DNA from: Spirochaetota bacterium
Lineage (GTDB): Bacteria; Spirochaetota; Spirochaetia; Treponematales; Rectinemataceae
Direction: 5' to 3'
Length of the DNA stretch: 64,000 nt
Assembly: GCA_029265615.1 (NCBI GenBank)
Contig: JAJUIB010000004.1
Location: 62,001-126,000, forward strand
The first letter of the stretch is position 1. Each line of letters starts with the position of its first letter. Positions 5,424 through 21,208 of this stretch are shown here, one piece after another. Under the pieces are notes generated by a model that was not told the origin of the DNA, searched no databases, and was given only the letters and a program-made list of their open reading frames with translations. The position numbers and the translations under genes were made by a program.

Positions 5424-6635
5424 ATGAAGAAGATTCTCAGGGTTGCGGCGATCCTCGCCATCCTCGCCCTCGTGGCGGGCGGTAACGTCTTTGCCCAGGC
5501 CAAAGCAAAGTTCCACATCGGCGTGGTGACCGGAACGGTCTCCCAGTCCGAGGACGATCTCCGCGGCGCCGAGGCCCTCATCAAGGCCTATGGTGACGTC
5601 AAATCCGGCGGGATGATCCAGCACATCACCTATCCCGACGACTTTATGTCCCAGCAGGAGACCTACATCTCCTCCGTCGTCTCCCTTGCCGATGACCCGC
5701 TTATGAAGGCCATCGTTGTCAACCAGGCGATCCCCGGCACCACCGAGGCGTTTAAGCGCGTGAAGGCAAAGCGCCCCGACATCCTCCTCCTCGCCGGCGA
5801 GCCGCATGAGGATCCGCTCGTTATCCAGAGCGCCGCTGACCTTGCGATGAGCGCCGACTTCGTGTCCCGTGGCTACACCATCATCTGGGCCGCCAAACAG
5901 CTGGGTGCGAAGACCTTCGTCCACATCTCCTTCCCGCGCCACATGAGCTATGAGTCCCTCGGCCGCCGCCGTGCCATCATGGAAGAGGCCTGCAAGGACC
6001 TGGGTATTAAGTTCGTGTTCGAGACCGCCCCCGACCCGACCTCCGACGTCGGCATGGCGGGCGCCCAGCAGTTCATCATGGAGAAGACCCCGCAGTGGAT
6101 CCAGAAATACGGCAAGGACACCGCCTTCTTCTGCACCAATGACGGCCACACCGAGCCGCTTCTCCGCCAGCTCCTCGCCTACGGCGGCATCTTCGTCGAG
6201 GCCGATCTTCCCTCTCCCCTCATGGGCTATCCGGGAGCGCTCGGCATCGATCTTTCCAAGGAGGCTGGTAACTTCCCCGCCATCCTCAAAAAGGTCGAGG
6301 AGGCGGTCGTCGCCAAGGGCGGCGCTGGGCGTTTTGGCACCTGGGCCTTCTCCTATGGCTACACTGTGACCGCCGGTCTTGGCGAGTTCGCCAAGATGGT
6401 GATCGAGGGCAAGGCGAAGAAGGATAGTCTTAAAGACCTCTACACCGCGCTCGGCAAGTACACCCCCGGCGCGAAGTGGAACGGCGCCTACTACACGGAC
6501 ATGAACACGGGCGTCCGCGCCAAGAACCAGGTCCTCGTGTACATGGACACCTACATCATGGGCAAGCCCGGCCGCTTCCTCCCGACCACCCAGCAGAAGG
6601 TCCCGGAGAAGTACTTCACGATCAAGAAGCAGTAA
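5424..6635 (+). CDS. DUF3798-family periplasmic substrate-binding protein of an ABC transporter
   Basis: 403 residues with a Sec signal peptide (ILRVAAILAILALVAGG, cleavage after NVFA). The start is fixed by AAGGAGG 5 bp upstream. The fold reads as a type I periplasmic binding protein. KFHIGVVTGTVSQSEDD opens the first lobe, LLLAGEPHEDPLVIQSAADL is a strongly conserved segment, and YTPGAKWNGAYYTD lies near the C-terminus. I recognise it as DUF3798 (a spirochaete and clostridial family), from memory. It is the first gene of an operon with a two-domain ATPase, two permeases and a small membrane protein, so it probably delivers the solute to them. The ligand is not known. A diverged paralogue is encoded at 11146-12375. 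Confidence 0.85.
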   Translation: MKKILRVAAILAILALVAGGNVFAQAKAKFHIGVVTGTVSQSEDDLRGAEALIKAYGDVKSGGMIQHITYPDDFMSQQETYISSVVSLADDPLMKAIVVNQAIPGTTEAFKRVKAKRPDILLLAGEPHEDPLVIQSAADLAMSADFVSRGYTIIWAAKQLGAKTFVHISFPRHMSYESLGRRRAIMEEACKDLGIKFVFETAPDPTSDVGMAGAQQFIMEKTPQWIQKYGKDTAFFCTNDGHTEPLLRQLLAYGGIFVEADLPSPLMGYPGALGIDLSKEAGNFPAILKKVEEAVVAKGGAGRFGTWAFSYGYTVTAGLGEFAKMVIEGKAKKDSLKDLYTALGKYTPGAKWNGAYYTDMNTGVRAKNQVLVYMDTYIMGKPGRFLPTTQQKVPEKYFTIKKQ

Positions 6636-6702
6636 TCCTGCGTCTATGGGCGGCCGCCATGCGCACGCCGCCCTCTGGCGCCTTGCTCTCGGCGAGGCGC
6701 CG

Positions 6703-6735
6703 CGCAGACGGCCCGCGACGAGCGGGCCGTCTGCG
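6703..6735 (+). promoter_or_regulatory. Intercistronic hairpin between binding-protein and ATPase genes
   Basis: A perfect 14-bp inverted repeat, CGCAGACGGCCCGC (6703-6716) and its complement (6722-6735), is separated by the 5-base loop GACGA. It lies 22 bases before the ATPase start and has no T-run, so it is not a standard terminator. Stable stems after a binding-protein gene commonly protect the upstream mRNA from 3' decay and raise the binding protein over the membrane components. That function is inferred here. Confidence 0.6.
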
Positions 6736-6757
6736 ATACCTGCCCCGCGAGGAATTT

Positions 6758-8371
6758 ATGGGACAAGACAGTCCGCTACTCTCCATCGAGCATGTCTCGA
6801 AGGAATTTTACGGCAACGTTGTGCTCCACGACGTCAGCTTCGATCTGAAGGCCGGCGAGATTCTCGGCCTGGTCGGCGAAAATGGCGCCGGCAAGACGAC
6901 GCTCATGCGCATCCTGTTCGGCATGCCCGTCATTGCGGAGACCGGCGGCTACAAGGGCCGCGTGCTCATTGACGGCGCCGAGGTCCGTTTTTCGAGCCCC
7001 TTTGATGCCCTCGACGCGGGCATCGGCATGGTGCACCAGGAATTCAGTCTGATCCCCGGCTTCAGCACTACGGAGAACATCGTCCTCAACCGCGAGTCAA
7101 TGCGCCCCACCTTTCTCAATGAGGTCTTCGGCGACAGGATGAGCGTCCTTGATCGGCCGGACATGCGCCGCCGCGCGGAGGGCGCGATTGCAAAACTTGG
7201 CGTGAAGCTCGATCCTGACATGCTCGTCTCCGAGATGCCAGTCGGTCACAAGCAGTTCACCGAAATCGCCCGCGAGATCAACCGTGAAAAGACCCGCGTC
7301 CTCGTCCTCGACGAGCCGACCGCGGTGCTTACCGAGAGCGAGGCCGAGGTCCTCCTTGTCGCTCTTCGGAACCTTGCCAAGCAGGGGATTGCGATCATCT
7401 TTATTTCGCATCGCCTGCACGAGGTGGTCGCGGTCGCTGACCGTATCGTCGTCCTCCGCGACGGTGTTGCGGTAAAGGACACGCCCGCCTCCGGAGTATC
7501 CGTCCGCGACATTGCCTCGTGGATGGTCGGGCGTTCCGTGCAGACGGATCGCGTTACCGAGGGCGAGGAGCGAAGCTTCGGCGAGGAATTTCTCATAGTG
7601 GAGCACCTTTGGGTGGATATGCCCGGCGAGACGGTGCGCGACGTCAATCTTTCGGTTCGGAAGGGTGAAATATTCGGTATCGGCGGTCTTGCGGGGCAGG
7701 GCAAGCTCGGTATTCCAAACGGCATCATGGGCTTGTTCCCCGCGGGCGGTTCGGTGAGCTTCCATGGGAAGGAGGCGCCTCTCAACGACCCTCGGCGCGT
7801 CCTCGAGATGGGCATGGCTTTTGTGTCCGAGGATCGCCGCGGCGTCGGCCTCCTTCTCGACGAGAGCCTTGAATGGAACATCGCCTTCACCGCGATGCAG
7901 ATCCAGGGCGGCTACCTCAAGCCCCTCTTGGGCGGGCTTTTGAAGCTCCGCGACGAGGCGGGGATGCGCAAACTCACCGAGGAATACGTCGCGACGCTTG
8001 ACATCAAGTGCACAAGCCCCGCGCAAAAGGCGAAGGAGTTATCAGGCGGCAACCAGCAGAAGGTCTGCCTTGCCAAGGCCTTCGCGCTCAAGCCGGACTT
8101 GCTTTTTGTCTCCGAGCCGACGCGCGGCATCGACGTGGGCGCCAAGAAGCTCGTGCTCGACACGCTCCACAAGTATAACCGCGATTACGGGACCACCATT
8201 GTCATGGTTTCGAGCGAGCTCGAGGAGCTCCGTTCCATCTGCGACCGCATCGCCATCGTCGACGAGGGCCGCATTGCCGGTATCCTCCCCCCGTCCGCGG
8301 AGCTCGCCGAATTCGGCCTCCTCATGTCGGGCGAAAAGGCGGAAGAGGCGAAGGAGGCCGGACGTGCGTAA
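6758..8371 (+). CDS. Two-domain ABC transporter ATPase, CUT2/sugar-nucleoside type
   Basis: 537 residues from ATG 6758 (GAGG 5 bp upstream; the frame is open further upstream but through the hairpin region). First ABC domain: Walker A GENGAGKTT, a signature region degraded to VGHKQFTEIAREI, and Walker B VLVLDEPTAVL. Second domain: a degenerate Walker A GLAGQGKLGIPNGIMG, an intact signature LSGGNQQKVCLAKA, and a Walker B reading LLFVSEPTRGIDVG with Ser in place of Asp. The pattern leaves one complete composite site (Walker A1 with signature 2) and one degenerate site, as is usual for RbsA-like ATPases. It energises import by the permeases encoded next; its stop overlaps the first permease start by 8 bp. 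Confidence 0.93.
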   Translation: MGQDSPLLSIEHVSKEFYGNVVLHDVSFDLKAGEILGLVGENGAGKTTLMRILFGMPVIAETGGYKGRVLIDGAEVRFSSPFDALDAGIGMVHQEFSLIPGFSTTENIVLNRESMRPTFLNEVFGDRMSVLDRPDMRRRAEGAIAKLGVKLDPDMLVSEMPVGHKQFTEIAREINREKTRVLVLDEPTAVLTESEAEVLLVALRNLAKQGIAIIFISHRLHEVVAVADRIVVLRDGVAVKDTPASGVSVRDIASWMVGRSVQTDRVTEGEERSFGEEFLIVEHLWVDMPGETVRDVNLSVRKGEIFGIGGLAGQGKLGIPNGIMGLFPAGGSVSFHGKEAPLNDPRRVLEMGMAFVSEDRRGVGLLLDESLEWNIAFTAMQIQGGYLKPLLGGLLKLRDEAGMRKLTEEYVATLDIKCTSPAQKAKELSGGNQQKVCLAKAFALKPDLLFVSEPTRGIDVGAKKLVLDTLHKYNRDYGTTIVMVSSELEELRSICDRIAIVDEGRIAGILPPSAELAEFGLLMSGEKAEEAKEAGRA

Positions 8372-12375: not shown

Positions 12376-12550
12376 TCGCGGGGCATCCCGCAGCTCCAGA
12401 GGGGATATTTCTCTTTTGCATTGACACACCCCTGCGGCAAGCTTGCATTCGCGCGCGCTCGCGGTATATCATTCCGCGAAACCGTGGCCAAAAGTTCCGG
12501 CTGCGGAGCGTCGCGCGGGACTCGTCGCCCGCGCCCCGAGGGAGCAGCAT

Positions 12551-14980
12551 ATGGCGAAGTATCCGTTCACCGAAATCGAGAAAAAGTGGCAGGCCCGCTG
12601 GGAAGAGCGGAAGACCTTCCGCGTTGTCGAGGATCCAAACGTCCCCAAGGAGAAGCGCCGCTACGTCCTCGATATGTTCCCCTATCCCTCTGGCGCAGGC
12701 CTGCACGTCGGTCATCCCGAGGGCTACACCGCGACGGACATCTATTGCCGCTATCTTAGGATGAATGGCTACAACGTCCTTCACCCCATGGGCTTCGATG
12801 CCTTTGGCCTTCCTGCGGAGAATTATGCCATCCAGACGGGCACCCATCCCGCCGTGACGACGAAGAAGAACATCGACCGCTTTCGCGAGCAGATCAAGGC
12901 CCTCGGCTTTTCCTACGACTGGGACCGCGAAGTTTCGACCTGCGATCCAGACTACTTCAAGTGGACGCAGTGGATATTCCTCCAGCTCTACAAGCGCGGA
13001 CTGGCCTACGAGGCGGAGATGCCGATCAACTGGTGCCCCTCCTGTCAGACTGGCCTTGCGAACGAGGAAGTCAAGGACGGCGAATGCGACCGCTGTCATA
13101 CGAAGGTCGTTCGCAAACGCATCCGCCAATGGGTGCTTAAGATCACCGCCTACGCCGACCGCCTTCTTGAGGACCTCGAAGGCCTCGATTGGCCCGAGGC
13201 TGTTAAGCTCATGCAGCGGAACTGGATCGGACGCTCCGAGGGCGCCTCCGTGCTCTTCGAGATCGAGGGGCTTGGCGAAAAGCTCGAGGTGTTCACGACC
13301 CGGCCCGACACGCTCTTTGGCGCAACCTACATGGTCATCGCGCCCGAGCACCCCTTTGTGGGGCGAATAACGACGGCCGCGCAGAAGGCCGCCGTCGACG
13401 CCTACGTCGATGCAGCCGCGCGGAAAAGCGATCTTGAGCGCACCGATCTTGCCAAAGACAAAACGGGCGTCTTCACGGGCGCCTACGCGATCAACCCTGT
13501 GAATGGGCGACGCATCCCCATCTGGATATCTGACTATGTGCTCGCATCCTACGGTACGGGCGCTATCATGGCGGTTCCCGCGCATGATTCCCGCGACTGG
13601 GCCTTTGCCAAAAAATTCGGCCTTCCTATCGTCCAGGTCGTCGCCGCCCCGGGCGCGGCGGCTACTGCGGAGGAGCCTGCGGAATACTTTGAGTCGGAGG
13701 GTGTCGCGGTTAATTCGGGCCCCTGGAACGGCATGACGACTGCTGAATGCAAGAAGGCTATCACTGCCTGGCTTGCGGAGCGGGGGCTCGGCAGGCTCGC
13801 GGTCAACTACAAACTCCGTGATTGGCTTTTCAGCCGCCAGCGTTATTGGGGCGAACCCATGCCCCTCGTCCACTGCGCAAAATGCGGCGTCGTCCCCCTG
13901 CCCGAAAGCGAGCTCCCCCTGCGGCTCCCCGAGGTCAAGAGTTATGCGCCATCGGGAAGCGGCGAATCGCCGCTTGCGAACATCCCTGAATGGGTAAACA
14001 CGCGCTGCCCCTCCTGCGGAGGACCCGCACGGCGCGAGACAAACACCATGCCGCAGTGGGCGGGATCCTGCTGGTACTACCTGCGTTACCTCGATCCGAA
14101 AAACGCCACCGCGCTCGCCGCGCGGGACAAGATCGAATACTGGATGCCTGTTGACCTCTATGTGGGCGGCGCCGAGCATGCCGTGCTCCATCTCCTGTAC
14201 GCGCGGTTCTGGCACAAGGTGCTTTACGACCTTGGCGTCGTGAACACCAAGGAGCCCTTCCTCAGGCTTGTGAACCAGGGCATGATCCTCGGCGAGGACA
14301 ACCAGAAGATGTCGAAGAGCCGCGGCAATGTCGTCAATCCCGACGATATCATTCGCGACTACGGCGCGGACGCTATGCGCGTCTACGAAATGTTCATGGG
14401 GCCGCTCGAAGTTTCCAAGCCCTGGGCGACCGCAGGCCTTGTCGGCGTCTCGCGTTTTCTGGAAAAGCTCTGGGCGCTCGGCGAGAAACCTCTTATCGAG
14501 GCGGAGCCCGAGCGGGGCGAACTCAAGCTTCTTCATAAGACAATCAAGAAAGTCTCTATGGATACGGCATCGCTCAACTTCAACACGGCGATTTCGCAGA
14601 TGATGATCTACGCGAACGAGCTCGCTCACCTTGAGCGCCTGCCTCGGCGTCTTTTCGAGCCCCTCGTTCTCCTCTTTGCGCCGTATGCGCCCCACCTCGC
14701 CGAGGAGCTCTGGGAAAGGCTTGGCCATGTCGAGGAGCTCTCCCGTACAGCCTGGCCCGTCTGGGATGAGTCGCTTGCCGCCGACGAGGAGAAGGAGATC
14801 GTCGTCCAGGTGAACGGTAAGATCCGCGAGCGCTTTGCGACGGCCGCAGGCACCGCCGAGGCGGAACTCGAAATGCGCGCTCGCTTGCTCCCCAAGGTCC
14901 AGGAATGGATCGCGGGCAAGGAGCTTGCGAAGGTCATCGTGGTCAAGGACAAGCTCGTCAACTTCGTCGTGAAGGGCTAG
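12551..14980 (+). CDS. leuS: Leucyl-tRNA synthetase
   Basis: 809 residues from ATG 12551 (GGAG 8 bases upstream; an in-frame ATG at 12443 would add a basic, non-conserved extension). The class I motif HVGH follows PYPSGAGL near residue 50, and KMSKS is in [13 protein letters not shown]. The editing (CP1) domain lies between, with [18 protein letters not shown]. Two zinc-type Cys pairs are visible: [13 protein letters not shown] with CDRC, and CAKC with CPSC. Cytoplasmic enzyme charging tRNA-Leu; length is normal for the bacterial enzyme. A TTGACA at 12421 could be part of its promoter, but no convincing -10 is correctly spaced. Confidence 0.97.
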
Positions 14981-14984
14981 TGGC

Positions 14985-16804
14985 ATGACCGCGAAACGCC
15001 CCCCTGTGAAGCGGCGGCGCATGAGCATTCTCGGCCGATTCTTTCTCCTTGCCGCATGTTCATTCCTCGCATTTGGCGCCATGTACAGCGTGCTCTCCGG
15101 CTCGATTGCCTCGCTGTCGGCCGAGCTTTCGCGGGTTCAGAACATCTTCGGCGTACTTTCGCGCGCGAGCGCGACGCTCGCGCGCGACGCCTATGCGATC
15201 GAGCTTTCGCTTTTCCGCGGCGTGGGGCAGCTCGGTCTGGGGGAGACGCTGCGGTGGCGCGTGTAGCATTCAACGAGGCCGAGTCGCGCCTCGGCTCCAG
15301 CAAGGGCACCATCGGCGAGCTCCTGCTCATTGAAACCGGCGACAGGGCGACCGCCGACGCCGTTCTCGAGGTCTCCAAGGCCTTTGAGGACTATGCCGCC
15401 TCCGCCCGAAGGCTCGTCGAGGCTTCCGCGTCTTCCCGCGAGGTGCCGCCGATCCTTGCCGAAACGGAGACGGCTTTTGCCGCGCTTGTGTTCCGCCTCG
15501 CGGCGCTCGACCGGGTCGTTCTCGAGGCGGGGGACGCCGCCTACGAGCGTGCGACCGCGACGCGGGATGCGGCGCGGACTGCGGTGTCGGTCGTTGCGGC
15601 TGCTGCTGCGCTCGTTATCGGCGGTATGATCCTCCTCACCACCCGTGCGATCAGGCGGCCAATCCGAAGCCTTGCAGCGTTCATTGAAACGATGGGATCG
15701 GGCGATTTCTCTGGCCGTTACAATGAGGCGCTTGGCGCCGAGCTCGGGAGCATCGCTGCGAGCGTTATGCGCCTTACCGACGACCTCCGCTCTCTCGTTG
15801 GCACGGTGAAAGACCGCGTCGCTTCACTCGAACTTCGGGGCGAGGAGCTTGCGGCTAAGATGGCCGAAACAGAGGCGAACGCCGATCGGGTCGCCCGCGA
15901 TGTTGAGGCGGCGACGCGCGGTCTTCAAGATCAATCGGTGGCCGTTGGCGAGGCCTCCGCGACGATCAGGAGCCACGCGCGCGGCGTCGAGGAGCTTTCT
16001 CGTCTCATCGGCGGTCATGGAGAGGTGCTTGCCGAATCGGCCGCCGCCGTCGAGGAGATGATTGCCCAGGTCGACGCTGTCGCCTCAGGCGCCGCCGAGG
16101 CGGCCAAGGCGAGCTCCCGTCTCAAGGCCGAGGGACTTGCCGGCAAGGAGCGCGTCGACGAAACACGAGAGGCGGTCGCCTCGATCGTCCGCTCGCAGGA
16201 GAACCTTGCGGAGGCGATTGGCCTCATCGAGGAGATCGCCGATCGGACTAACCTTCTTGCGATGAACGCCGCCATCGAGGCGGCGCACGCGGGTGAAGCC
16301 GGCAAGGGCTTCGCTGTTGTTGCGGACGAGATACGCAAGCTCGCCGAGCAGTCCACCCAGCGCGCGCGGGATATCGGTGTCGACCTCGGACGCGTCGCCG
16401 AGGCGATCGGCGCGGTGCGACGTTCCTCCGAGGCAGTTGTCGCTGCGTTCGGTGTCATCGTCGAGCGAGCGGGCGCCGTTGATGAGGAGGTGGGGCGCAT
16501 TTCGCTCGCGATGGAGGAGCAGCGCAAGGGCGGCAAAGATGTGCTCGAGGGCCTCGACCGGCTCAAGGGAATCGCTATGGAGATTGCGAAGGGCTCGGCG
16601 GAACTCGATTCGGGGAACCGCGCCGTGCTCGACGAAGTCGAGCGGCTTAAGGCGGCGAACCGCAGCGTCGTCCGGAGCAACGAGGACATCGCACGTGGGG
16701 CCGCCGAGATACGCGCCGCCGTCGTCGCCGCGGCGGATCTGTCGACGCGGAACGCCGCGCTTATCGCTGAAGTCGGCGAGGCCATTGACCGCTTCAAGCT
16801 ATAG
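14985..16804 (+). pseudogene. Methyl-accepting chemotaxis protein broken by a single-base frameshift
   Basis: The coding information is split. Frame one runs from ATG 14985 (4 bases after leuS) to a stop at 15264-15266. It holds TM1 ([19 protein letters not shown]) and the first part of the periplasmic domain. The rest is in the frame shifted by one base: [16 protein letters not shown] onward, TM2 ([16 protein letters not shown]), HAMP, and the MCP signalling hairpin with [18 protein letters not shown]. Adding one G to the five-G run at 15239-15243 joins both parts into an intact protein of about 606 residues. This is either a real inactivating or slippery mutation, or a sequencing error. If intact, it would be a transmembrane chemoreceptor for the CheA system at 49712. 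Confidence 0.82.
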
Positions 16805-16848: not shown

Positions 16849-18969
16849 TCAGTCGGTTTTGAACGCCGCCATGTCCATCGCGAGGGCGCGGACGCTCTCC
16901 GCGGCATGGCTTGAAAGTTCGTTGGTCTGTGCCGCCGCCGTTCTGATTTGTTCGGCGCCTGAAGCCATCTCGTTCATGCCCGCATCGAGTTCCGAGGTGA
17001 TGCGGAGGAGCTCCTTGGTTTCCGTGAGTATGGCGGCGCTTCCCTCTTTCATCGCCTCGGCCTCGGCGCGCACGTCGCGGGTGATGCCGTTCATCTCCGA
17101 GAGTGCTTCGAGTATCTGCGCGGAGCCCGCGCTCTGCTCCTGCATCGCGAACTTCACCTCCTCCTCGAGGTGTGAGAGATTCTCGATCTGTTCGTAGATT
17201 TCACCGAAGCCCCGCTCCGCCTCGACCGACGAACCCACGACGTCGCTGATGCCGCGCCGGATGTCTGCAAGGTCGCGCGCGACCTTTTTCGATTGCGCGG
17301 CGGCGTTTTCCGCGAGCTTGCGTATCTCATCGGCGACGACGGCGAACCCGCGCCCCGCCTCGCCCGCGTGCGCCGCCTCGATGGCGGCGTTCATCGCAAG
17401 CAGGTTGGTCTGCGCGGCGATGCCCGCGATGAGCGCATTCGCCTCCTGGAGGGACTCGGAGCGGCTGTCGATGTCCTTGGCTCGCGCTGCGACCTTGGCG
17501 ATCGAGTCGCGGCCAGTGCCGCTCTTCGCGAGGAGTCGCGTGTAGTACTCGCCCATCCGCTCGATATTGGCGGTGACGGATTGCACATTGGCGACCATCT
17601 CCTCGATGGACGAACTTGAGACGGCAAGGCCCTCGGCCTGGCGCTCGATTGCGCGGAACAACGTGTCGACGCGGCCCGCCATCTCCTCGACGGTCGAGGA
17701 GGTTTCGGTCACGCCTGCGCTCTGGGTGAGGGCGCGTTGCCTGATCGAGTCGATGGTCGCGGCGATCTCCACGACGGCGCTCGCCGTCTGGCTCATGTTC
17801 GCGGCGAGGCTTTCAAGATCGCCACGGAGCGAGGCCGCCTGAGCCTTCGCGCGCGCGACGGTGCCGCAAAGTGATGCGGCAAAGGCGTTGTAGTCCCGCG
17901 CGAGGGCGCCGAGCTCATCCGCATCGCCCTCATTGACCTGGCGCGTGAGGTCGCCCTCGCCGCGTGCGATGAGGGCGAACGCGGCGCCGAGCGCGGTAAG
18001 CCGACGGTTGAAGCGCCTGAGCACGACGACGGCGACGCCGAGAACGATCAGGATGACGGCGAGTGAGCCGATTCCCGTTACGAGTATGCCGCGGAAGGCC
18101 GCGGCGCGTTCGGCCGGAAGGGCCTCGCGTGCTCTTGTAAGCTCGCGCTCGATCGAGGACCTCAAGCCTCCCATCACCGCGCTTGCGTCGTCGAAGACAC
18201 GCTGCGGATCAAGGCCGTAGCCGCCGAAGCTCGCCATATCGACTATACGGAGTATCGAGGCGCCAAGGTCGGTGAATTCCTCGCTTGCGAGAATTTGGCC
18301 GAGTTCGGCCGCACTCGTTTCAGAGATGCGGAGCGCTTTCGAATCGAGCGCGGCCCTAAGTTCGCCGAGGCTCGACACGGTTTCAAGGAGCCGTTCCCTG
18401 CTTATCGGCATGTCAGAGGCCGCGGCGCCCGCGGTGAAGGCGCGGAGGCGGCCCGCTGCCTCGCCCGCTTCCTCGAGGCGCACAATGGCGCCAAGGCCAT
18501 CGGCGCTCACGCTGGATACCCGCCGCGCCGCACTGCTTTCGTAGATAAGTAGGGCGCTGATGGCGCGGCTATAGTCGACGAAAACCGGATCCGCGCCCGC
18601 CTCCTTGCCCGGCACAAGGCCGCGAGTCGAGGCTAGGGTGGCCATAGCTTCCTTTATTGCCGCTTCGCCCTCAAGCCGTGCCAGGGGCGCGGTCTTGGCC
18701 CATTCTGTGAAGGCTTGCGTTGTCTCCGCGCCAAGGCGGCCAAAGTCATCGGGCGCCGTGCCGCCTGAGAGGATGACGTAGGCGGCGCCCCGCTCGCGCT
18801 GCACGGCGGCGATGAGGCGGCTCGATGCTTCGATCGCATCGAGGACCGCCGCGCTTCGGTCGAGCGCGGTCAGGCGCTGCGAGAGGCTTAAAAGAAAGAG
18901 GAGGTTGAAGACATTCGCGAAGACAAGGGGTATCGCGACGAGGAGCGTTATTTTTGTCCGCAGTTTCAT
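16849..18969 (-). CDS. Methyl-accepting chemotaxis protein with NIT-type sensor domain
   Basis: 706 residues. TM1 lies near residues 8-30. The periplasmic region opens with [20 protein letters not shown], which matches the NIT (nitrate/nitrite-sensing) domain signature. TM2 is near 300-325, followed by HAMP and a cytoplasmic signalling domain with [20 protein letters not shown]. Known role: a ligand signal is passed to CheA/CheW. The NIT domain suggests nitrate, nitrite or related small-molecule sensing, but no binding residue can be confirmed by eye. The gene converges on the broken receptor at 14985-16804. The 44 bases between contain GC-rich inverted repeats that could terminate both, without a T-run. 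Confidence 0.93.
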
Positions 18970-18973
18970 GGTC

Positions 18974-19633
18974 CTACCTCGCTGTCATGCCAAGCACAAG
19001 GGCTCCGTACGCCGCCACCACCGCAAGTCCCGCGATGACAAAGCCGCAAACGCCACGGCGCTGCCGCGCTTCAGGGCCGCTTGCTACCGCGGCGCCTGCT
19101 TCCTCCCATATGGCGAGCATGAACGAGTCCGCGTCTTCAAAAAGGGTGGCGGGGCGCAGCTTGCCCCGGTATTCAACGATCCGGTCATAGTACATAAAGG
19201 CCCGTGCGACAATGGAGCCGAAGCGTCCAGGGAGTCGCAAGCCCGGCCTGATTGTTGCTTTGGAAATGTAGACGAGCCCTTCGAAGGTGAGGGCCTTGTC
19301 GATGCCCTCGCGGAGAGCTCCTTCTGTGATGATGAGGGGCCCCGCGCGCCACAGGACGCGCCCCAGGGGGACAAGGAGGTTGGCGGCCAGGATGCCGAGC
19401 GTCACGAAGAGCGTGGTTGCAAGCGAGACGCGCTTTCCCGAAGCGAGGGCCGCGGTGAGGAAGACGCACAGGAGCGCCGCCTTTACAGATAAAAGGGGCT
19501 GAAATAGAAAGGCGAGCGAAAGGAGGATGCCCGTGGCGGCAAGCATCCAAGGGGCGAAGAGCGCATCGTAGCGCGCGGCCCGAGCCTGGCGCCGCGCCCC
19601 CGCGCGCCCCCGCGCGGCATCGGTGTCACGCAT
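18974..19633 (-). CDS. Integral membrane protein resembling an ECF transporter T component (EcfT/CbiQ)
   Basis: 219 residues from ATG 19633, overlapping the stop of the preceding gene by 8 bp; upstream codons in this frame lie inside that gene. It has four or five hydrophobic segments. The stretch [18 protein letters not shown] resembles the EcfT/CbiQ segment that precedes the coupling helices. A C-terminal hydrophobic span follows ([19 protein letters not shown]). It is the last gene of an operon with a Gx-type (S-component-like) membrane protein and a NusG-II protein, which supports the ECF reading. No ECF ATPase gene is nearby, and the characteristic Ala-Arg-Gly motifs of EcfT are not obvious. 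The call is tentative. Confidence 0.6.
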
Positions 19634-20198
19634 CGGGCCTCCCTGCGGCGCGGGCGTACCAGCGCGAGGATGCGGCAAAGCGCTCGGCAAAGAGACCGAG
19701 GACTGCTCCGGTGACAAGCCCCATACCCAGAAAAAGGGGGGCGATGAGCCGCGCCGCATCGCCGAAAACCACGTATTTTGCAAGGAGCACCTGGGCGGCG
19801 TTGGAGGCGACCGCACCGAGAATGGAGACACCGACCGATGAGATGAATCTTCCACCTATCCGCTTTGCCGACCACATGACGAGCGCGGCGACGAGGGTGC
19901 CCATGAGCGAAAAAAGCGCGATGTACGAGAAGAGCGAACCGGAGATCACGCTCATGCCCACCACTTTTACGAGGGCGAGCACGAGGAACCACGGCAGAGG
20001 GAGGAGCTCGGTCGCGAGAAGGAGGGGGAGGTTCGCGATGCCGAGGCGCATGAAGGGGAGCGGTTTCGGGATCATGTATTCGATGGCGGAAAGAAAAAAG
20101 CAGAAGGCACCGAGGAGGGCGGTGAGGTCGGCCCGATCCGGTCTTACAAGGGGTGCATGATTTTCGTGCTCAGTAGGCGCCGGCGTCGATGGTGTCAT
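19626..20198 (-). CDS. Gx transporter / heptaprenyl diphosphate synthase component I family membrane protein
   Basis: 190 residues from the ATG at 20198, chosen because GGAAGGG lies 10 bases upstream; ATGs at 20207 and 20234 are possible. Five or six membrane spans are visible. The segment PLPFMRLGIANLPLLLATEL is the family hallmark: an S-component-like protein misnamed after heptaprenyl diphosphate synthase component I. These proteins are thought to be substrate-specific membrane subunits of ECF-like importers, with unknown substrate. It overlaps the NusG-II gene upstream by 29 bp and the EcfT-like gene downstream by 8 bp, so all three are co-translated. Confidence 0.8.
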   Translation of the reverse strand: MTPSTPAPTEHENHAPLVRPDRADLTALLGAFCFFLSAIEYMIPKPLPFMRLGIANLPLLLATELLPLPWFLVLALVKVVGMSVISGSLFSYIALFSLMGTLVAALVMWSAKRIGGRFISSVGVSILGAVASNAAQVLLAKYVVFGDAARLIAPLFLGMGLVTGAVLGLFAERFAASSRWYARAAGRPDA

Positions 20199-20583
20199 TG
20201 GTGGCATTCCCTTCCACGCGCACAAAGACGGCATTGGGCATACAAGCTATCCACTGCCCCGCCTGCGATATGGCGCCTGCCGCGACGCAGGTCTGGTTGG
20301 GGCAGGGGGAGGAATGGATGTGGACACGGCCGCCTTCGATCGCCACAATCGTTGAGCCGAGGGGACCATCCACCTCGACCTCGCGATCCTTGTCGAGCGG
20401 ATACACCCACTCACCGCCTTCGCCCGAGATGAAGACCGAAAGCTCGCCACCGCCCGGCTTGTACACCGAAAGCGCCGACAGAGCGACAAGGGCGGTGGCG
20501 GTGGCGAGAACCAGCCAGTCAAGGAGACGGAGGCGGGGGAGGCGGCCCGCCTCCCCCGCCGTCCGAGAGCGGGGGCGCGTCAA
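20170..20583 (-). CDS. NusG domain II-containing protein
   Basis: About 137 residues. One membrane span lies near the N-terminus (LLDWLVLATATALVALSAL), with a small beta domain after it: EGGRVHIHSSPCPNQTCVA with two cysteines, then QAGQWIACMPNAVFVRVEG. This matches the NusG_II family, exported or membrane-anchored domains usually next to Gx transporter genes. The two Cys in CPNQTC could bind metal or form a disulphide. TTG at 20583 forms a TTGA overlap with the slyD stop and is my preferred start; GTG 20604 or ATG 20625 would extend it inside slyD. It is not a transcription factor despite the domain name. Confidence 0.78.
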   Translation of the reverse strand: MTRPRSRTAGEAGRLPRLRLLDWLVLATATALVALSALSVYKPGGGELSVFISGEGGEWVYPLDKDREVEVDGPLGSTIVAIEGGRVHIHSSPCPNQTCVAAGAISQAGQWIACMPNAVFVRVEGNATNDTIDAGAY

Positions 20584-21134
20584 TCCCCGCAGCCGCAGCC
20601 ACACCCGCCTTCGCCGCAGCCGCATTCCTCGTCTCCGCAGTCACAGTCCTCGTCATCGCAGCCGCAGGAGCAGCCGCCATGGACGTGACCGTGCGCAAGT
20701 TCCTCGGCCGTGGCCTCTCGCACATCGACGACATTGACGTCGAAGTGGAGTGTCTCGCCCGCGAGGGGGTGGTTTGCGTCGATGGTGACTTCATCGTTTT
20801 CGACAGCGACGACGGTGACGAGCTGGGAACCATGTTCGCTCTGCGCCTCGAACTGCATGCCAGGCTCCACCGTTGCACCCTCGAATTCCGCCTTGCCGAC
20901 TTTGAAAATGAGACTTTCGTCCTTTTCGCCATAGCCTTCGGCCGGTTCGATCACGCAGCTGACACGGTCGCCGGCTTTTTTCCCCTCAAGGCGCTTTTCC
21001 AGGCCGGGAATGATGTTCCCGTTGCCATGGAGGTAAACGAGGGGCTCGGAGCCCTCGGAGGAGTCAATGAGATTGCCTCCATCGTCCTTGAGCGTATAGT
21101 CGATGCTGACCACGCGGTCTTTCTCTACGATCAT
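20580..21134 (-). CDS. slyD: FKBP-type peptidyl-prolyl isomerase, SlyD-like, with metal-binding tail
   Basis: 184 residues. The FKBP core starts with VSIDYTLKDDGGNLIDSS and has EPLVYLHGNGNIIPGLEKRL, with the inserted flap domain (VSCVIEPAEGYGEKDESLI) before ANHPLAGETLHFDVNV. Known role: proline isomerase and chaperone, and a nickel carrier when the tail is present. The last 40 or so residues form a Cys/His/Asp/Glu-rich tail beginning HGHVHGGCSCGCDDEDCDCG, with roughly a dozen Cys. It heads an operon with the NusG-II, Gx and EcfT-like genes. A metal-linked role for the whole group is possible but unproven. Confidence 0.92.
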   Translation of the reverse strand: MIVEKDRVVSIDYTLKDDGGNLIDSSEGSEPLVYLHGNGNIIPGLEKRLEGKKAGDRVSCVIEPAEGYGEKDESLIFKVGKAEFEGATVEPGMQFEAQSEHGSQLVTVVAVENDEVTIDANHPLAGETLHFDVNVVDVREATAEELAHGHVHGGCSCGCDDEDCDCGDEECGCGEGGCGCGCGD

Positions 21135-21208
21135 GCTCGTCCTTTCGAGTGTGAAGCTATCCTAAGATTGTACCTGGGAAAAAGCCAGCTCGGCAAGTAG
21201 AGATTTCT

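Follow-up and report, generated by a model that had tools for sequence, protein, structure and literature searches.

A candidate EetB-type flavin exporter with a divergent T-like partner in spirochaetes

Introduction

Bacteria that carry ApbE together with Rnf or Nqr need FAD outside the cytosol. The closest described export system is that of Listeria. According to the part of PMC9973259 drawn on here, the Listeria PF07456 protein EetB resembles S components and binds FAD. Flavinylation of PplA by FmnB requires EetB, the T subunit FmnA and the EcfA/EcfA′ of the importer (PMC9973259). FmnA is described as homologous to ECF-T and can take the place of EcfT in import (PMC9973259). The same source places the greatest abundance of PF07456 in Firmicutes, with further occurrences in other phyla, reports fusions of EetB with ECF-T or ECF-A domains and calls the mechanism of ECF-type export little known.

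Periplasmic flavinylation has been described in Treponema pallidum, with no FAD exporter named in the sections of these papers used here (PMC4767422, PMC7512555). The main text of PMC8238504 makes no mention of Treponema, NusG or PF07456, and our literature searches, which covered mostly open papers without their supplements, returned no description in spirochaetes of the gene cluster reported below.

Here, we analyze a locus in a 64,000 nt stretch of a Spirochaetota genome (hereafter the window). A first-pass annotation, made from the letters of the window, had noticed three overlapping genes next to slyD. They encode a NusG_II protein, an S-like protein (Gx) and a 219-aa membrane protein, together called the trio in the following.

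Results

Organization of the locus

The slyD, NusG_II, Gx and 219-aa genes form a closely spaced run, all on the minus strand (Table 1). The Gx stop and the start of the 219-aa gene overlap by 8 nt (ATGCGTGA). In the relative L038, the NusG_II open reading frame starts about 23 residues later than the first ATG in the window. The true NusG_II start may thus lie further in than this ATG, which makes the overlap of the NusG_II gene with slyD uncertain. Promoter-like sites of the same quality as the one upstream of slyD were found three times in the region, vs. 0.4 expected from shuffled sequences. A leuS-like gene (12443–14980) and the trio are separated by two chemoreceptor-like genes: 15056–16804 (+), judged by eye, and 16849–18969 (−), in which MCPsignal and HAMP domains were recognized.

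Table 1. Features of the slyD-trio locus, in window positions.
Feature	Position	Strand	Remarks
Divergent T-like membrane protein, 219 aa	18974..19633	−	ATG start; EcfT fold predicted; one basic coupling position kept, second arginine motif absent
Gx / EetB-type S component, PF07456	19626..20234	−	First ATG at 20234; alternative in-frame ATG at 20198
NusG_II protein, PF07009, one predicted N-terminal membrane anchor, EetA-like	20170..20625	−	Coordinates from first ATG
C-P-N-Q-T-C codons within the NusG_II gene	20287..20304	−	Read from the sequence; SPC.N..C kept in 35-row alignment
slyD, FKBP-type isomerase, Cys/His-rich tail	20580..21134	−	FKBP_C match; conserved neighbor of the trio
Promoter-like site upstream of slyD	21167..21196	−	Consensus match only, 9/12

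Gx is a PF07456 protein with an S-component fold

The Gx protein matches PF07456 with an E-value of 5.9e-32 and 111.1 bits, the cut-off being 30. We modelled a relative in which Gx and the T-like protein are fused as a single chain (pLDDT 88.8, pTM 0.85). Foldseek searches with this model returned nothing below E 0.001 and many unrelated transporters, and the two folds were separated by VIA alone, after Foldseek had failed. The Gx half of the model has an S-component fold (TmRibU, Z 13.6, rmsd 2.7 over 163 residues), in agreement with the S-like call of the first-pass annotation. As ThiT and other S components lie within 1 Z of TmRibU, the fold is uninformative about flavin. The T half, model residues 222–433, has an EcfT fold (7nnt_D, Z 12.1 over 205 residues). 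We dropped the fusion itself as a novelty, since EetB–ECF-T fusions are already mentioned in PMC9973259.

The 219-aa protein is predicted to have an EcfT/CbiQ fold

At the sequence level, the 219-aa protein had no Pfam or NCBIfam match at E ≤ 1. An hhalign comparison of 41 homologues with 17 EcfT/CbiQ proteins gave a probability of 1.1%, and a search of PDB sequences with the 41-row profile did not recover an EcfT identity. When Pfam was run on each of the 41 homologues, PF02361 (EcfT/CbiQ) was seen in two (best E 0.17) and T2SSF in four (best E 0.0084). Sub-threshold PF02361 matches were found in relatives from G071 (E 9.3e-4), G037 (E 9.4e-3) and L191 (E 0.0096).

The AlphaFold model built from the 41-row alignment (pLDDT 91, pTM 0.80) gave a different picture. 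PDB ranks 1–10 in Foldseek were all ECF T chains, one of them below E 0.001 (best E 2.9e-4). VIA aligned the model with 8bms_C over 202 residues (Z 14.1, rmsd 3.3). Eleven EcfT/CbiQ rows scored Z 8.8–14.1 and the first unrelated chain Z 5.0, most of the EcfT/CbiQ rows being below Z ∼13, the warning level of the tool for helical proteins. On the basis of the model, the 219-aa protein is T-like, with a predicted EcfT/CbiQ fold. The earlier EcfT/CbiQ-like assignment is thus upheld by the predicted fold, but not by any profile match. A missing profile match to EcfT was the outcome named in the first-pass annotation as refuting its reading, and at the level of sequence it did occur. We keep the T-like reading because of this fold and the sub-threshold PF02361 matches of some homologues. 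As the fold comes without sequence-level similarity, the protein is at most a distant relative of EcfT.

NusG_II protein and SlyD

The NusG_II protein matches PF07009 (E 7.4e-21, 74.8 bits, cut-off 29.6). The patterns SPC.N..C and W.ACLPN are kept across 35 relatives, which supports a NusG_II protein with conserved cysteines, as seen in the CPNQTC motif singled out in the first-pass annotation. Given the anchor and the preceding basic residues, the domain is probably periplasmic and possibly redox-active. SlyD was recognized by its FKBP_C domain (E 1.9e-12). Its tail varies among relatives, several of the compared tails being incomplete.

Distribution of the trio

Using the single 219-aa protein as query, we found homologues in 125 of 146 genomes sampled from the order. 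A search with the 41 homologues detected the T-like protein in 79 of 296 genomes sampled from the phylum, and all but two of the 79 belong to the same class. A locus scan with the single Gx protein yielded 19 loci, with the titles Spirochaetaceae, Spirochaetes/Spirochaetota, Spirochaetales, Treponema or Brevinematales.

Gene neighborhoods were compared in 41 distinct genomes, a set made up of the best-scoring loci and chosen regions rather than drawn at random from the 125 positives. In 41/41 of these genomes, the T-like gene has Gx as its immediate neighbor on the same strand, and in 21 the two constitute one open frame. The clustering of Gx with the T-like gene is beyond chance. NusG_II is present in 35/41; the six genomes without it are all from one family, in which other genomes (L190, L191) have it. 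The association of slyD with the trio, noted earlier for the window, recurs as adjacency in 35/41 genomes from several families.

Link to flavinylation

Among the 146 genomes of the order, PF07456 was found in 129 and ApbE in 139. Co-occurrence with ApbE, among the checks that the first-pass annotation had suggested for the trio, was seen for PF07456: ApbE is present in 128 of the 129 genomes with PF07456, the exception being G080 (79% complete), and missing from 6 of the 17 without (Fisher p 6.7e-6, in a test that ignores the relatedness of the genomes). When only the 115 good-quality genomes were considered, ApbE was missing from 0/105 with vs. 5/10 without PF07456 (p 1.6e-6). The six double absences are spread over five genera and three families, and G044 and G142, which belong to two of these genera, keep both genes. 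FMN_bind (PF04205) was detected in 137/146 genomes and is missing from 5/17 without vs. 4/129 with PF07456. As ApbE is present in 11 of the 17 genomes that lack PF07456, the exporter proposed below is not indispensable. Good-quality genomes with ApbE and without PF07456 are G020, G067, G122, G133 and G145.

In most genomes, including that of the window, ApbE is not located beside the trio. In at least 12 of the 129 genomes, from three genera, it is no more than 2 kb away from a copy of Gx (G009, G016, G039, G054, G071, G075, G086, G097, G111, G112, G125, G137). The gene is convergent to the trio in these 12 and hence not part of one operon with it. In genus g20 (L185–L189), the trio-adjacent ApbE gene is followed by anti-sigma-factor-like and extracytoplasmic-sigma-factor-like genes, as judged by eye. 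The neighborhood of L045 contains a FAD_binding_2 protein whose start resembles that of a lipoprotein (by eye), together with a pyridine-nucleotide oxidoreductase, a polyprenyl synthetase, a FAD synthetase, DUF362 and ArsP_1.

The genome of the window has a single ApbE. It also contains an rnfCDGEA operon, with C, D, E and A above and G below the NCBIfam cut-offs, and an Nqr-like set that is below the NCBIfam cut-off throughout, with the B and C subunits above the Pfam cut-offs. The FMN_bind subunits of these two operons would be the targets of ApbE.

ECF ATPases and coupling motifs

We searched for ECF ATPases with a model built from 19 ATPases that lie beside EcfT genes. TIGR04521 was dropped as a marker; it matched in 146/146 genomes, with none over the cut-off. 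The model scores the dedicated single ECF ATPases of the order at 254–324 bits and those of other ECF units at 174–225 bits. In the window, the models built here recognized neither ECF ATPase nor EcfT genes. The only open reading frame found by the ATPase model encodes a 645-aa ABC protein with two ABC_tran (PF00005) stretches (6434–8368, +), more than 10 kb away; its 161 bits are the level of an ordinary ABC protein. The cluster therefore has no ATPase of its own, as the first-pass annotation had stated.

Elsewhere in the genome of the window, ECF-type ATPases were found at three places: contigs C22 (298 bits), C20 (226 and 209 bits) and C39 (188 bits), each with an adjoining EcfT/CbiQ-type protein. 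By eye, we take these units to be of the biotin, vitamin and cobalt/nickel types. Their ATPases could be shared with the trio, as in Listeria. The EcfA–EcfT pair on C22 (L173) is conserved, with L174–L179, among distant members of the order, and has a BioY-like neighbor (by eye) in several of them. A PF02361 match is present in 137/146 genomes of the order.

The 17 EcfT/CbiQ proteins of the order carry two arginines that are both 94% conserved and 34–53 residues apart. Of the T-like proteins, 38/41 carry R or K at the first basic coupling position; from sequence and the order of the helices, we infer that this position corresponds to the first EcfT motif. No later position is R/K at ≥75% among the 41, five of which have fewer than 40 residues after the first position. 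In the window protein, the second cytosolic helix has a net charge of −5 with an Asp that is invariant in the alignment. The T partner thus seems to have one of the two ATPase-gripping arginine motifs and to have lost part of the docking site. In subgroup II systems, replacing either Arg inactivates the transporter, according to the part of PMC3246461 drawn on here.

We considered the idea that genomes with the trio lack ECF ATPases, and tested the five T-like-positive genomes without an initial PF02361 match (G029, G069, G099, G109, G111). This reading was rejected: G029 and G111 have EcfA proteins of 306 and 254 bits, and G099 has a PF02361 match. In G109 (99% complete) and G069 (93% complete, 510 contigs), Gx and the T-like protein are kept and no EcfT or ECF-type ATPase was recognized. 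The T-like open reading frame of G109 is only 153 aa. Its best ATPase matches reach 168 bits, close to the weakest of the true ECF ATPases (174), but those inspected have LSGGQKQR instead of LSGG-E-KR.

Discussion

The spirochaete cluster resembles Listeria EetB–FmnA in its PF07456 S component, in a T-type partner without an adjacent ATPase gene of its own and in its link to ApbE-type flavinylation. The neighboring NusG_II gene is comparable to eetA, whose product we take to be a NusG_II protein. Unlike FmnA, the spirochaete partner goes unseen by PF02361 and hhalign and has no second arginine motif; the cluster is also widespread in one spirochaete class and usually located away from apbE. 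Compared with EcfT/CbiQ proteins (PF02361), the 219-aa protein shares the predicted fold and a basic position close to where a cytosolic helix ends, but it has no profile similarity and carries an acidic helix in place of the second arginine motif. Solitary S components such as some BioY and BtuM proteins (described in the part of PMC11109136 drawn on here) are likewise S-fold carriers that may be independent of an ECF ATPase. They are importers, however, whereas Gx always has an EcfT-fold partner, beside it or fused to it, in the 41 genomes examined. A T partner that is too divergent for profiles and keeps one of the two arginine motifs looks new.

The protein families, predicted folds, gene fusion, synteny, co-occurrence with ApbE and absent second arginine motif lead us to favor, with moderate confidence, the trio as a spirochaete form of an EetB-type flavin exporter. 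Gx would be the S-type carrier, picking up a flavin, in all likelihood FAD, in the cytosol and releasing it outside. The 219-aa protein would be the EcfT-fold partner dedicated to Gx, and the two are often fused. NusG_II, as a membrane-anchored, cysteine-bearing and probably periplasmic domain, may act at the outer face; deletion of eetA in Listeria gave no phenotype, as far as the part of PMC9973259 drawn on here reports. The exported flavin would be used by ApbE for flavinylation of Rnf and Nqr subunits. Either ECF ATPases of other systems would be borrowed to supply the power, or there would be no ATPase and the consumption of FAD by ApbE outside would pull the flow.

The first-pass annotation had left these same two options, ATPases shared from elsewhere or unnecessary, and the ECF-type ATPases at three places in the genome supply candidates for the first. 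An exporter driven by ATPases of another system of the cell overlaps our preferred explanation, and we regard it as a reasonable possibility that falls short of likely. It is favored by these ATPases, the wide occurrence of PF02361 in the order, the basic residue at the first coupling position and the sharing of EcfA/EcfA′ in Listeria (PMC9973259). The absence of the second R/K speaks against it, given that either Arg is essential in subgroup II (PMC3246461, as above), and so do G109 and G069, which keep Gx and the T-like protein with no ECF ATPase or EcfT recognized. The other option is more tentative still. It would be a motorless S–T exporter in which FAD moves outward without ATP, pulled by periplasmic ApbE that consumes it. 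Its T part would have shed one of two ATPase anchors, with S and T often a single polypeptide, and the type would occur across much of one spirochaete class, a reduced genome of 1.1 Mb among them; we hold this motorless reading to be possible but less likely than not.

A genuine S–T transporter might instead carry a non-flavin substrate, another cofactor or nutrient, and possibly be an importer. S-component folds of differing substrates score alike and ApbE is kept in most genomes without PF07456, but the EetB data for this family (PMC9973259), the co-occurrence and neighborhood of ApbE and the more frequent absence of FMN_bind where PF07456 is missing make this unlikely. Metal handling by the trio jointly with the metal-tailed SlyD, a possibility raised in the first-pass annotation, was not supported. 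Despite the conserved neighborhood of slyD and the conserved NusG_II cysteines, SlyD tails differ among relatives, the neighborhoods inspected contain no link to a metal enzyme or metal transporter, and both the co-occurrence with ApbE and published work on PF07456 (PMC9973259) point to flavin; we consider a metal role very improbable. It is harder yet to credit a role in prenyl-diphosphate metabolism, suggested by the Pfam name of PF07456, “heptaprenyl diphosphate synthase component I,” and by the polyprenyl synthetase that L045 carries ∼4 kb away from its trio, in the face of the S-component fold of Gx and the EetB data (PMC9973259).

As an EetB-type flavin exporter, the cluster would be a specific candidate for the FAD exporter in the class that includes the treponemes. 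A T-type partner that seems to be missing one ATPase anchor and is nevertheless kept with its S component would offer a natural way to test if ECF-type export depends on an ATPase.
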